This document shows, piece after piece, positions 9,368 through 19,824 of a DNA stretch of 20,355 nt; position 1 is the first letter of the stretch; each line of letters begins with the position of its first letter. Below the pieces are notes generated by a model that ran no database searches, was not told the DNA's origin, and saw only the letters and a list, made by a program, of their open reading frames with translations. Origin of the DNA: a virus; the IMG/VR virus record IMGVR_UViG_3300021170_000084, positions 1 through 20,355 of that record, one strand, 5' to 3'. A program made the position numbers and the translations under genes.

Positions 9368-9445
9368 TGCAAATGATTTTTATGAGAAGAGTTCTTGGGT
9401 GGTGCTAGCGCGGATCGTTTGATTGCTTTACCTGTGGCAACCCGT

Positions 9446-9622
9446 CTACTTGTGAGCATCTGCCTCGCGCTCCCACTGAAGAACCTGTGTGCAGGCTCTG
9501 CAGTAGCGTTGATATTGCGACATAGCGTGAGCGTCCCACGTTTCACCGCAATGTGGGCACGTACACCGAATCAAAAAGTTTCCGTCGCTTCGATATTCAT
9601 AGGAAGGCTTATCGAGACTCAT
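9446..9622 (-). CDS. Small zinc-ribbon protein
   Basis: 58 aa from ATG 9622 with an excellent GGAGGGGAG site; a TTG at 9667 in frame is less likely. Two CxxC knuckles, CTCPHCGETW (20-29) and YCRAC (41-45), form a probable four-Cys zinc ribbon. The rest is polar. Such single ribbons are common phage early proteins and can bind nucleic acid or protein partners. The gene is separated from the next gene by 78 bases in which I see no clear promoter. Confidence 0.75.
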   Translation of the reverse strand: MSLDKPSYEYRSDGNFLIRCTCPHCGETWDAHAMSQYQRYCRACTQVLQWEREADAHK

Positions 9623-9810: not shown

Positions 9811-9992
9811 TTCTCTGTTCCTTTCTGCCGCTCCGCGACTCGCTCTAGGATGGCGGGTGGGGCGAGGGCGAGAATGCGGTCCTTTAGGCCTAGATTGCCC
9901 GGATGAGATGGTCTATCAGAGAAGTCGTGAGCTAATTCAGCCGCAGCTTTTATGGCATCTGCAAACCCGCGATCATATTCACTGTTTTGCAT
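9807..9992 (-). CDS. Small helical phage protein
   Basis: 61 aa from ATG 9992 with GAGG four bases upstream. It contains YDRGFADAIKAAAELAHD (6-23), a helix pattern seen in many short phage proteins, then a polar loop and a second helix (ILERVAERQKG). It overlaps the end of the HNH ORF by 14 bases and hands over to the next tiny ORF by ATGA. Function unknown. Confidence 0.7.
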   Translation of the reverse strand: MQNSEYDRGFADAIKAAAELAHDFSDRPSHPGNLGLKDRILALAPPAILERVAERQKGTEK

Positions 9993-10479
9993 TTAACCTC
10001 GCCTGTCCCGCCTCTCTTTTCTTTTTCCGCCACCGCTGGCATCTGGCCCTACGGCATATCCGACAAATTCTTACCCGCTTTCCATATGAACCGATGGCTG
10101 TAGTATCGAATGGATGACCGTTCGCGCAGGTTTTCTTGCGGGCCAAATTTGCAATAGGAGACGTGCCACGCAGAATATTCACTGCCCCTGTGACTACTTC
10201 TAAATGGTTCGGATTAATGCAAGACCTGTTACGACAAAGGTGATCCGGCTCCAATCCTTTCGGTATTGCATACTTGAGAAGTTCATGTGCAAACGCGTGA
10301 GCTGGACGGTGACGCCGAGACCCTACGAAGAATCTTCCGTACCCTTTACATAGAGCACCCTTCCACAGCCAGCACGGTCCCAGTTCTGGGCGCAACGCTG
10401 GAATCGGCCCGTTAAAATCAACCTTGCTCCAAAAGCGGTAGTGCAAGTTTTCTAGCGCTGTCTTTTGACGGGGTGTCAT
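9979..10479 (-). CDS. HNH endonuclease (HNH_3 type)
   Basis: 166 aa from ATG 10479 with GGGAG seven bases upstream, overlapping the previous stop. The order RFWSKVD (15-21), CWLWKGA (36-42), GYGRF (46-50), PDHLCRNRSCINPNHLEVVT (78-97) and N-x-x-RG (101-105) is that of HNH_3 homing endonucleases. The catalytic set is likely D79/H80 with N91/H92 and N101. A C-terminal zinc-knuckle-like part (CANGHPFD, CRICRRARC) follows. These enzymes cut DNA and spread as selfish genes in phage genomes. It lies between small genes and overlaps both. Confidence 0.88.
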   Translation of the reverse strand: MTPRQKTALENLHYRFWSKVDFNGPIPALRPELGPCWLWKGALCKGYGRFFVGSRRHRPAHAFAHELLKYAIPKGLEPDHLCRNRSCINPNHLEVVTGAVNILRGTSPIANLARKKTCANGHPFDTTAIGSYGKRVRICRICRRARCQRWRKKKREAGQARLNAKQ

Positions 10480-10757
10480 TTAGACTCTCCCAAGGACATA
10501 ATCTCGCTTCGATGGATATAACCCTCTTCGTCGCACTTGTCGCAAATTCGCCGCAGCGTCTCCTGCACGATGGCGGCGGAATGGTAGACAATAAGAGGCG
10601 TAACAAGTTCTACAATCAGTCGTTTAACTTCAGAAACAATCTGACTTTCAGGTGGATCGTAAATAGACAGCTCGTTAAGATACTCGCCCCATATTTTCTC
10701 AGCGCACTCCTCCGCCAGCTTCCTCTCGCTGGACTCGGGCGTCACGGGGTTGGTCAC
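10476..10757 (-). CDS. Hypothetical helical protein
   Basis: 93 aa. I choose GTG 10757 because it overlaps the previous stop as GTGA and has GGAGG five bases upstream; an open frame extends to 10832 without such support. The protein is helical (SERKLAEECAEKIWGEYLNE, then SEVKRLIVELVTPLIVYHS) with a late CDKC pair (residues 72-75 approximately). The first residues (TNPVTPESSERKLAEECAE) resemble the start of the preceding 69-aa protein, so the two may be diverged duplicates. Function unknown. Confidence 0.7.
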   Translation of the reverse strand: MTNPVTPESSERKLAEECAEKIWGEYLNELSIYDPPESQIVSEVKRLIVELVTPLIVYHSAAIVQETLRRICDKCDEEGYIHRSEIMSLGESK

Positions 10758-10963
10758 GACTTCCTCCGCACTTCTTCTTCCGCAAACATAAATAGTGCTT
10801 CCATGATCTCTTCGCGATATCTGGCGCGGCAATGAGGGGCGTGGCGAATCGTTTCCGCCTCAGCAGCAGTAGGGGTGCGGATTCTGCAGGTACAAGGAAG
10901 CACTTGCTCCGCTTTTTCACGGGCGCGGCTCAGGCGGTCGGGCGTCACTTGGTCATTTGCCAT
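10754..10963 (-). CDS. Small protein translated from a hairpin-buried start
   Basis: 69 aa from ATG 10963, with AGGAG six bases upstream. It has a helical N-terminus (TPDRLSRAREKAEQVL), a CTC pair, a PTAAEAETIRHAPHC segment and a C-terminal acidic/basic helix. The first 13 codons form one arm of a 39-bp perfect inverted repeat. On the mRNA, the ribosome site lies in the 15-base loop and the start codon sits at the top of the stem. Translation is therefore likely to depend on unfolding or on ribosome loading at the loop. Function unknown. Confidence 0.75.
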   Translation of the reverse strand: MANDQVTPDRLSRAREKAEQVLPCTCRIRTPTAAEAETIRHAPHCRARYREEIMEALFMFAEEEVRRKS

Positions 10964-11016
10964 CTTCGGCTCCTGGTTGGCAAATGACCAAGTGACGCCC
11001 GACCGCCTGAGCCGCG
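10924..11016. repeat. 39-bp perfect inverted repeat
   Basis: Arms 10924-10962 and 10978-11016 are perfect reverse complements of 39 bp, separated by 15 bases (10963-10977). One arm encodes the first codons of the 69-aa gene; the other lies in the gap after the DpdA-like gene. The ribosome site AGGAG (10970-10974) is in the loop. No U-run follows, so it is not a usual terminator. Confidence 0.97.
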
Positions 11017-11027
11017 AACCCGTCTAC

Positions 11028-11762
11028 TCACAATAATTCTATAAGGTGACTCTGATAAAGGCTCTTTCGTCCCACGGCGTTTTTGAATGCCATCGCGTTG
11101 CGCCAGTCGTTTGCTCCGGTTTTCTGCCGACGAGCTGCAAAACTCCACGCCATCGAGTCCGCCGATTCCAAGAGCGCTCGGATTGTGCCGTTGGCGAGTG
11201 CCGTGGTTTTTAGACCGAAACCGTGTAATCGAAGATCTGGCCGTTCCGTCTTTATCGCAATCAGAACATCGAGAATCAGGCACGGGTTAGCGTTGCGCTT
11301 GCAGATGGAGCCAACCCCAACCCAGGCGCCTTTCGCCAGCCGAGCGCCGTACTGCCGCACGTGAGAAACGTAATCATCCGGCTCATATCCTTGGAGCACT
11401 GGCATGATGTAACAGCCCGTTTCACACCGTAACAGACCGTCATACCTCTCAATAGTTAGGCGCTGGTGGTCGGCCACCGTGAGTCCTGTTTTCGCCAGCA
11501 TCATTGGCTCGCACATATAGTCCTGAGAGACTGCCGCTAGCAGGTTCCCATTGCCCTTCCATCGCTTGATCTGCTCGGCGTACTCTTCCACTGGATGCGG
11601 GTATCCTCCGTAAGTCTTGATAGTCGTAAACGCCTGGGAATCCATGATCCAATCGCGCACAGAGAATGGCCCTTTCCTTTTGCGCAAGCGCCCGACTGAC
11701 ACAAAAGCAGATTCGAAGTGCTTCGCGTCCGATGGTTGATGTAAGCCGATAAAGAATTTCAT
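11028..11762 (-). CDS. DpdA/TGT-like base-exchange enzyme
   Basis: 244 aa from ATG 11762; the ribosome site is weak. The sequence fits the TGT-like TIM-barrel family that includes DpdA proteins, which swap guanine in DNA for a 7-deazaguanine. Visible sites: MDSQAFT with D41 (compare the DSGGFQ of tRNA-guanine transglycosylase), SQDYMCEP with D81, PVLQGYEP with Q124, VGVGS (148-152), HGFGLKT (180-186) and SADSMAWSFAAR (200-211), where D202 lies where the TGT nucleophile would be. The start MKFFIGLHQPSDAKHF is like phage DpdA-type proteins. It is short for the family. A role in DNA hypermodification against host restriction is inferred; a non-DNA substrate cannot be excluded. It follows the cupin gene and precedes the inverted repeat. 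Confidence 0.72.
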   Translation of the reverse strand: MKFFIGLHQPSDAKHFESAFVSVGRLRKRKGPFSVRDWIMDSQAFTTIKTYGGYPHPVEEYAEQIKRWKGNGNLLAAVSQDYMCEPMMLAKTGLTVADHQRLTIERYDGLLRCETGCYIMPVLQGYEPDDYVSHVRQYGARLAKGAWVGVGSICKRNANPCLILDVLIAIKTERPDLRLHGFGLKTTALANGTIRALLESADSMAWSFAARRQKTGANDWRNAMAFKNAVGRKSLYQSHLIELL

Positions 11763-14258: not shown

Positions 14259-14743
14259 AACTCTTTCAGGGAATATTGAATCGGCGGTGGAACGTACTGG
14301 CGAATACCGATTCCTAACTCAAATCTTGATTTCTTTGGTGCGCCGGCGTGCCATCCCTTTCGCATATTGTTTGGAGGCTTGCCTAATGGGCGAAATGCAT
14401 ACTGCATTAAGGCCTTAAGTGCTTGTGTTCTTTTTTCATCGGAAAGAAATGGCCAGATAGGCTTGAGAAAAGTAATGCATTTGTCCCATCCATACACACG
14501 CAGTTTCCAGATCGTCCTCGACGGACGCATCTTGCCTTCTTGCGGTTTGCCTATTCTCACAACCTCGTGAAATCTATTCAGGGTGCGCGGGTTGACCTGG
14601 CTGATAGAAACTTCAACGCTGTAATGGTCCCTATAAGCCCGATAGAAAGTGCATCCCTCGCCATCGAAAAAGCCAGCAGCCCAAGCTCTTTCTAAGTTTC
14701 GGCGATTGGGTTGTACTCGTTCGGTTTCATGTTGAATGTCCAA
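14255..14743 (-). CDS. LAGLIDADG-type homing endonuclease
   Basis: 162 aa. The start is TTG 14743, supported by a perfect AGGAGG (14751-14756) seven bases upstream. Residues 20-30 (AWAAGFFDGEG) are the LAGLIDADG motif with acid residues D27 and E29. Later strands (YSVEVSISQ, TIWKLRVYGWDKCITFL) and a helix with LKALMQYA fit the fold. One motif means it would act as a dimer. It is free-standing, not in an intron, and overlaps the DUF6745-like gene by 52 bases and the next gene by ATGA. Confidence 0.85.
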   Translation of the reverse strand: MDIQHETERVQPNRRNLERAWAAGFFDGEGCTFYRAYRDHYSVEVSISQVNPRTLNRFHEVVRIGKPQEGKMRPSRTIWKLRVYGWDKCITFLKPIWPFLSDEKRTQALKALMQYAFRPLGKPPNNMRKGWHAGAPKKSRFELGIGIRQYVPPPIQYSLKEL

Positions 14744-15945
14744 GAAATTGCCTCCTGCACATTGTTTATCTGTGGCGGAATTCTCAAAAAATACATGCGC
14801 CCCGTAGAAGGATCGGTCACCCGCACGGCCCGCAAAACTCGTTCAGGATCTCCGGGCAAATCGACAGAGAACAAAATTCCACGATCATGCTTGTGAATCT
14901 CTTTGGCTTTAGCATCCGCGATGAAGCGGTCCATGCCAACGCGCTCAATCATCACGCGACGGATTTCGGCGTTTTCCTCGGCCAAGATTTCTTTTGCGGT
15001 GATGGTTTCAGGTTGTTCGATGATTCGCTGCGGAACAATTACGCCGTGCCACGCCCAAATACCCCACTTGTCGCTGTAGCCACAGGCTTGGCCCTTGTCG
15101 GAATGTAGCCGTCCTTGCGCATCAACTTCGACAATTGTGTGTCGATCAGAAACAAACACAATCCCGTCGTACGGAAACCACCAATGCAGATTTCTTGATT
15201 GCTCAAGCCATAGATCGAGAAGCTTTTCATCTTCAGGCGAGTACTCGACTCCAATCTCGGATGCGAATTTATAGAACACTTCCCAGCAGCACCAATGCGC
15301 TCCCGCGAAGCGGTTGCCGAGCTGCGAGTCGAGCTGCGAGCGGAGCTGCGAGTAGAGCTGCGAGTAGAGCTGCGAGTCGAGCTGCGAGCCGAGCTGCGAG
15401 CGGAGCTGCGAGTAGAGCTGCGAGTAGAGCTGCGAGTAGAGCTGCGAGCGGAGCTGCGAGCGGAGCTGCGAGTAGAGCTGCGAGTAGAGCTGCGAGTAGA
15501 GCTGCGAGTCGAGCTGCGAGCCGAGCTGCGAGCGGAGCTGCGAGTAGAGCTGCGAGTAGAGCTGCGAGTAGAGCTGCGAGCGGAGCTGCGAGCGGAGCTG
15601 CGAGTAGAGCTGCGAGTAGAGCTGCGAGCCGAGCTGCGAGTCGAGCTGCGAGCCGAGCTGCGAGCCGAGCTGCGAGCCGAGCTGCGAGCGGAGCTGCGAG
15701 TAGAGCTGCGAGTCCTTAGCCAGACATTTCAAAGCCCCCCAAGCTAGTACGCAGATCATCGGCGAACTGAAATAAAAAATTGTCGGCTTCGGTTTTCCGA
15801 TGCGGCCGTAGAATTCGCCAATAATTTTCTCAGCCGCAGATTTGTCGATAGGCTGGGTGCTGCGTCCAATTCCCAGCCACTCCTCGTAAACCTCGGCAAG
15901 CCGCAACTCTTGCCGAGGCGTCATCTTTGTTATTTTCTTTGACAT
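14692..15945 (-). CDS. DUF6745-like protein with X-S-Q-L repeat array
   Basis: 417 aa from ATG 15945 (GAGG five bases upstream). Residues 1-77 are a mixed helical region. Residues 78-209 are 33 tandem copies of the four-residue unit X-S-Q-L, where X is only Tyr, Arg, Gly or Asp. Residues 210-417 match my recollection of DUF6745 proteins: WCCWEVFYKFASEIG, RLHSDKGQA, WGIWAWHGVIVP, AEENAEIRRVMIERVG and a closing PSTGRMYFLRIP. Related proteins with D-Q-x-R/W type four-residue repeats exist in actinobacteria, but no function is known to me. A period of four would put Leu along one face of a helix. It forms a pair with the His-rich gene before it. Phage role unknown. Confidence 0.85.
   Translation of the reverse strand: MSKKITKMTPRQELRLAEVYEEWLGIGRSTQPIDKSAAEKIIGEFYGRIGKPKPTIFYFSSPMICVLAWGALKCLAKDSQLYSQLRSQLGSQLGSQLGSQLDSQLGSQLYSQLYSQLRSQLRSQLYSQLYSQLYSQLRSQLGSQLDSQLYSQLYSQLYSQLRSQLRSQLYSQLYSQLYSQLRSQLGSQLDSQLYSQLYSQLRSQLDSQLGNRFAGAHWCCWEVFYKFASEIGVEYSPEDEKLLDLWLEQSRNLHWWFPYDGIVFVSDRHTIVEVDAQGRLHSDKGQACGYSDKWGIWAWHGVIVPQRIIEQPETITAKEILAEENAEIRRVMIERVGMDRFIADAKAKEIHKHDRGILFSVDLPGDPERVLRAVRVTDPSTGRMYFLRIPPQINNVQEAISWTFNMKPNEYNPIAET
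15319..15714. repeat. 33 x 12-bp tandem array
   Basis: Thirty-three units of 12 bp. Ten bases (GAGCTGCGAG on the plus strand) are identical in every unit; only two vary, and only as ta, cg, cc or tc. In minus-strand codons these give Tyr (TAC), Arg (CGC), Gly (GGC) and Asp (GAC). A higher-order 11-unit (132-bp) block is repeated almost exactly: units 11-21 and 22-32 share the order R R Y Y Y R G D Y Y, differing only in the last unit. Confidence 0.98.
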
Positions 15946-19178: not shown

Positions 19179-19351
19179 TACGCCGCCTCCATCGCGTCTT
19201 CTCTGGCGATTTCGATACATGATTCATGGCCGTACTCCATGGGATCATCGTCGCTAAGCTCGGCCACTAGTTCACCCGCCCTTATTGCATTTCCGCAGTA
19301 GCTGCAAAACTCGCCGTTCTCGAAAGATGGCGCGCGGAAGAAAGGTTGCAT
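19178..19351 (-). CDS. Small treble-clef/zinc-binding protein
   Basis: 57 aa from ATG 19351 with GGAGG seven bases upstream and a stop that overlaps the next start as TAATG. Residues 16-19 (CSYC) and a later HESC (42-45) give a Cys-x2-Cys / His-x2-Cys zinc site. Between them lies an acidic strand (LVAELSDDDP). The C-terminal helix is acidic. The pattern is like small phage PARP-type or treble-clef zinc proteins. It is overlapped by the tail of the HNH ORF, so part of that tail is likely a by-product. Confidence 0.75.
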   Translation of the reverse strand: MQPFFRAPSFENGEFCSYCGNAIRAGELVAELSDDDPMEYGHESCIEIAREDAMEAA

Positions 19352-19824
19352 TTAGAATCCTCCAATGATTTCCAGCGACTACGAAATTCTCTGGCGTGAG
19401 GGTGCTTTCTTTTGTAATAAGCGCGCGTCCTGTTCCTTACGCATGCCAGACACGCACGCCATCCGGTTTTAGGGTTAACCCAAAGGTTTTCACCGGATAA
19501 TGGATGACCATGCATGCACGCAACTTTCCGTGCGTTCACAGCCGTTATGGAATTACCCCTCATGTTATTAGTTCTCGCGGTTACGGCTTCCAAGTGATCA
19601 GGGTTTACGCACAAACGATTGCTGCACAGGTGATCAAGCTGAAGATCCTTTGGAATAGGACCTTTATGCAATTCATAGCTGAAGCGATGGACACGCACCT
19701 TTCTCAATGCGATCTGGATGCTTCCGTATCCACTGACAAATTTATGGCCAGTCCAATTCCAGCAACCGGAGGTTTTCTCCACGTAGCGCCAAAATCGATA
19801 TAGCGGAGTGCCTTTGCGTGACAT
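19282..19824 (-). CDS. HNH endonuclease (HNH_3 type)
   Basis: 180 aa from ATG 19824 with GGAGG upstream, in a TAATG overlap. The order RFWRYVE (10-16), CWNWTG (21-26), SGYGSIQ (31-37), VHRFSYELHKGPIP (45-58), LDHLCSNRLCVNPDHLEAVT (63-82) and N-x-M-RG (87-90) fits the HNH_3 family. Catalytic residues are likely D64/H65, N74/H77 and N86 or N87. A zinc-knuckle part (CMHGHPLS, CLAC) follows. The last 30 or so residues run out of frame across the next gene's ribosome site and start, suggesting the ORF extends past its original end. Confidence 0.87.
   Translation of the reverse strand: MSRKGTPLYRFWRYVEKTSGCWNWTGHKFVSGYGSIQIALRKVRVHRFSYELHKGPIPKDLQLDHLCSNRLCVNPDHLEAVTARTNNMRGNSITAVNARKVACMHGHPLSGENLWVNPKTGWRACLACVRNRTRAYYKRKHPHAREFRSRWKSLEDSKCNLSSARHLSRTASFAATAEMQ
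19356..19365. repeat. Direct repeat, downstream copy, at HNH ORF
   Basis: AATCCTCCAA at 19356-19365 equals 19828-19837. Each copy is the ribosome site of the gene after it, and a nearby TAA is also shared. Confidence 0.8.

Follow-up and report, generated by a model that had tools for sequence, protein, structure and literature searches.

The idea of template-switch mutation came first from phage T4 and yeast. Both E. coli and phage T4 are known to show the mechanism (PMC7202029), and perfect hairpins can arise by one template-switch event (PMC8794818). For great apes, in which such events have been catalogued, the copied segment has a median length of 12 nt and a maximum of 128 nt, and the length of the locus is left unchanged in 5.5% of events (PMC7954356). 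Here, we describe a phage locus at which a long, perfect inverted repeat can be set beside a near-identical relative that lacks it. We consider it likely that the repeat arose recently by one template switch during replication, that the relative represents the state before the event, and that the 69-aa gene starting on the repeat is probably silenced. The locus lies in a window of 20,355 nt, by which we mean the whole stretch of DNA analysed (IMG/VR virus record IMGVR_UViG_3300021170_000084, positions 1 to 20,355).

A ribosome site displayed on a 39-bp stem

The genes of the window include those for P22-type packaging and head functions (Terminase_3, P22 portal, and P22 coat) and for an ERF annealing protein, as judged by Pfam and PHROG. 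On the minus strand, a DpdA-family gene (11028 to 11762; Pfam PF23859, E = 1.3e-38; PHROG 1279, E = 9.7e-66) is followed by the repeat, by the 69-aa ORF (10754 to 10963), and by a 93-aa ORF (10476 to 10757). For the 69-aa ORF, AGGAG lies 6 nt ahead of the ATG, and the codon score is best in its own frame; searches of viral and genome contigs, phage records, Pfam, and PHROGs yielded no homologue of its protein except in one relative, where the protein is identical. The GTG start of the 93-aa ORF, also on the minus strand, overlaps the stop codon of the 69-aa ORF in GTGA, and from this arrangement the two ORFs are possibly translationally coupled.

Several other features of the neighborhood deserve mention in their own right. 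DpdA stands for deoxypurine in DNA protein A, a family name that points to 7-deazaguanine DNA modification, here in the company of P22-type head and packaging genes. An HNH endonuclease-like ORF (9979 to 10479, minus strand; Pfam HNH_3, PHROG 826) lies three genes downstream of the DpdA gene, and a similar-looking ORF is present at 19282 to 19824 on the minus strand. The sequence AGTAGACGGGTT occurs twice, at 9439 to 9450 and at 11017 to 11028, in both cases at the end of a minus-strand gene, a recurrence that shuffling did not place beyond chance. A tandem array with 12-bp and 60-bp periods (15319 to 15713), comprising about 33 copies of GAGCTGCGAGTA, lies within a minus-strand ORF (14692 to 15945) and encodes SQLYSQLRSQL-type repeats.

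The arms of the inverted repeat (10924 to 10962 and 10978 to 11016) are complementary at 39 of 39 positions and are separated by 15 nt. From loop to start, the minus strand reads AACCAGGAGCCGAAGATGGCA. The loop itself (10963 to 10977) consists of AACCAGGAGCCGAAG with the A of the start codon (10963) at its end and contains AGGAG; the ATG (10963 to 10961) follows 6 nt later and is split, its A being the last base of the loop and its TG the first bases of the stem. The coding arm (10924 to 10962, minus strand) comprises codons 1 to 13 of the 69-aa ORF, starting from the T of ATG, while the non-coding arm (10978 to 11016) occupies the gap after the DpdA-like gene, the end of which (11028) is separated from the repeat by 11 nt. 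An earlier note on this DNA had claimed perfect 39-bp arms around a 15-base loop, with AGGAG in the loop and the ATG at the top of the stem, and had assigned one arm to the N terminus of the 69-aa protein and the other to the gap behind the DpdA-like gene; all of this was borne out.

The number of perfect 39-bp repeats expected by chance in the window, for loops of at most 60 nt, is about 4e-18. A search of 378 kb, composed of the window and related loci with some of the contigs overlapping, for perfect inverted repeats with arms of at least 15 nt and loops of at most 60 nt found this one alone. The longest arms were of 18 nt in lambda, Pseudomonas phage H66, Sinorhizobium phage phiLM21, a Microcystis phage, and two cave-spring phages, and across all the related and reference phage DNA analyzed, approximately 0.6 Mb, the 39-bp repeat is unique.

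Two alleles and the event that would join them

The relative, IMGVR_UViG_3300050821_002337, overlaps window positions 11468 to 1, i.e., 11,468 bp, and is collinear with it. Since 11 kb at such identity would normally collapse in one assembly, the two contigs probably derive from separate samples. Over the entire overlap, there are only two differences: a synonymous SNP (G/T at 10521, GGG/GGT), which is the sole difference outside the repeat, and a 32-nt block at 10982 to 11013. In this block the window carries the exact reverse complement of 10927 to 10958, whereas the relative carries an unrelated 32-mer of the same length. The two versions agree at 8 of 32 positions, which is the chance level, and all 24 differences are accounted for by one reverse-complement copy of 10927 to 10958. 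The coding arm, loop, AGGAG, and ATG are common to both records, and the non-coding arm is absent from the relative. Inversion of the loop was ruled out, as its orientation is the same in both alleles.

The copied block is bounded by two microhomologies, both of which are present in both alleles: an inner TGGC (10978 to 10981, plus strand), which pairs with GCCA at 10959 to 10962, and an outer GCG (11014 to 11016, plus strand), which matches CGC at 10924 to 10926. The two alleles, the exact templating, the microhomologies, and the unchanged length and loop can all be read directly from the records. The relative's 32-mer has no above-chance match elsewhere in either contig and no other exact occurrence in viral contigs; on these grounds, the notion that it was itself copied from elsewhere was rejected. 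A 21-mer spanning the ribosome site, which could have marked a conserved element, was found in no contig but the one relative.

By parsimony from one relative, and without an outgroup, the palindromic allele would be the derived one, because the window's sequence can be obtained from the relative's by one templated event, whereas the reverse would be an untemplated, same-length replacement of 32 nt, and because the relative's 32-mer has no known source. The earlier note had suggested a recent origin by template switching, to be checked by looking for the non-coding arm in related phage genomes; the absence of that arm from the one near-identical relative, with a same-length unrelated block in its place, strongly supports the suggestion.

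In the simplest version of the event, a nascent plus strand that had been copied through 10981 would fold back, its 3' end TGGC pairing with GCCA across the 15-nt loop, and would copy itself for 32 nt (10958 to 10927) before regaining its proper template in register at GCG (11014 to 11016). The scar would be identical if a nascent minus strand had instead switched to the second parental strand, so that either strand may have been the nascent one; the plus-strand version is what we infer. In both versions the non-coding gap would be overwritten, while its length would be unchanged and protein sequences would be untouched. The unchanged length is partly explained by the return triplet: in the 60 nt on each side, the relative has GCG in register and at one other place, -34. 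Points that weigh against a template-switch origin are the short pre-event microhomologies (4 bp and 3 bp), the unchanged length, and a copy longer than the great-ape median.

Artefact and function as alternatives

The alternative that survives best, although we judge it unlikely, is that the strand switch took place in vitro (during multiple displacement amplification, PCR, or library end repair) or that the repeat was introduced by graph resolution, in which case the real phage would have the relative's sequence. Among chimeras of multiple displacement amplification, 85% are inverted, and most have complementary junctions of 2 to 21 nt (PMC1855051), so an in vitro version of the event has to be taken seriously. 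However, a single fold-back cannot yield both junctions together with the original spacing. An amplification or library chimera would be recognized by a single junction, an intervening deletion, and presence in a minority of reads; the first two are contradicted by the two junctions and unchanged spacing found here, and an artefact of this form needs two switches in one molecule, then fixed as consensus. A library hairpin would be expected to end at the outer arm, where it would have 3 nt in common with the true flank, presumably too few for an assembler to join. That no similar scar, i.e., no further perfect repeat with arms of at least 15 nt, was seen in the 378 kb of these contigs also weighs against an artefact. 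The earlier note had looked to relatives for evidence of an assembly fold-back; synteny is intact on both sides in the relative, which argues against a simple fold-back.

Less probable still is a functional reading, in which an older hairpin serves the 69-aa gene as a translational or RNase III switch and was lost in the relative. A switch would be in keeping with the hairpin's location between two genes and with the exposure of AGGAG in the loop, but loss in the relative would require an untemplated swap for an unrelated block of identical length. A stem kept for a long time would usually show one-sided or compensating changes, and none are present. In addition, the window has no match to a known RNA family (Rfam, covariance models at the gathering score), and no tRNA was found. 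None of the 12 more distant DpdA neighborhoods inspected carries the 69-aa gene, which makes them uninformative for comparison of the gap and neutral on whether the element is functional. We give equally little credence to a variant in which template switching serves as a heritable off-switch, the allele being kept in the population because it pays, in certain conditions, to silence the 69-aa gene; if true, a one-step, same-length mutation would put a ribosome site on a long stem with the proteins unaltered. The GC-rich stem in the intergenic gap that separates the DpdA-like gene from the 69-aa ORF might suggest a bidirectional intrinsic terminator, an idea that can practically be dismissed: neither arm is followed by a T run (AACCCGTC and CCCGTGAA flank the repeat), one arm encodes protein, and a scan limited to loops of 3 to 8 nt found no terminator-like sites.

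Predicted consequences and likeness to known mutation systems

As the earlier note had proposed, the mRNA was folded: the repeat is predicted to form a hairpin of -86.6 kcal/mol. To free the 30S footprint, from about -18 to +16 relative to the start, is predicted to require 33.3 kcal/mol, compared with 9.5 kcal/mol in the relative, in support of the strong effect on translation that had been claimed. For the segment from AGGAG to ATG alone, the predicted values are 5.9 and 5.5 kcal/mol, respectively. In this model the SD sequence would be exposed, yet the full 30S footprint would be blocked. Strongly reduced expression of the 69-aa gene would be the likeliest effect, and translation of the coupled 93-aa ORF would perhaps be cut too. 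Ribosomes ending the DpdA gene would halt 11 nt before the stem and would melt its base only. A 39-bp stem is long enough for RNase III; any cleavage in its 3' side would fall in codons 1 to 13, cutting the gene off from its start. The ribosome site would have come to lie atop the stem as a by-product of the template switch, and the hairpin is probably a tolerated or slightly harmful mutational scar, not a selected regulator.

If a template switch is indeed the origin, the two records form a natural pair in which a single event replaced 32 nt and left a start codon covered by a 39-bp stem, the rest of the 11.4 kb differing by one silent base. Phage populations could then acquire strong RNA structure at a ribosome site in a single step, and a repeat of this kind in a virus catalogue would not have to be either a regulatory element or an error of assembly.

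Among known systems, the chimeras of multiple displacement amplification (Lasken and Stockwell 2007, PMC1855051) resemble this locus in their microhomology-primed switch to a nearby complementary strand and their inverted product, but they have one junction and an intervening deletion, whereas here there are two junctions, collinear flanks, and unchanged spacing. In quasipalindrome-associated mutation (Ripley 1982; E. coli reporters, PMC7202029), a snapped-back nascent strand likewise copies the opposite arm, and the repeat is made perfect with the register unchanged; the difference is that the locus before the event would have offered only 4 bp and 3 bp around 32 nt matching at chance (8/32). 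The four-point model (Walker et al. 2021, PMC7954356; Monttinen and Loytynoja 2022, PMC8794818) also describes a multi-base cluster explained by one nearby reverse-complement copy, and under it, too, a single event yields a perfect stem and leaves the loop in place. Its data are from apes or RNA genes, whereas the present case is from a phage, its 32-nt copy exceeds the ape median of 12, and its unchanged length is uncommon among great-ape events (5.5%). The mechanism is already known; the before-and-after pair is unusually clean.
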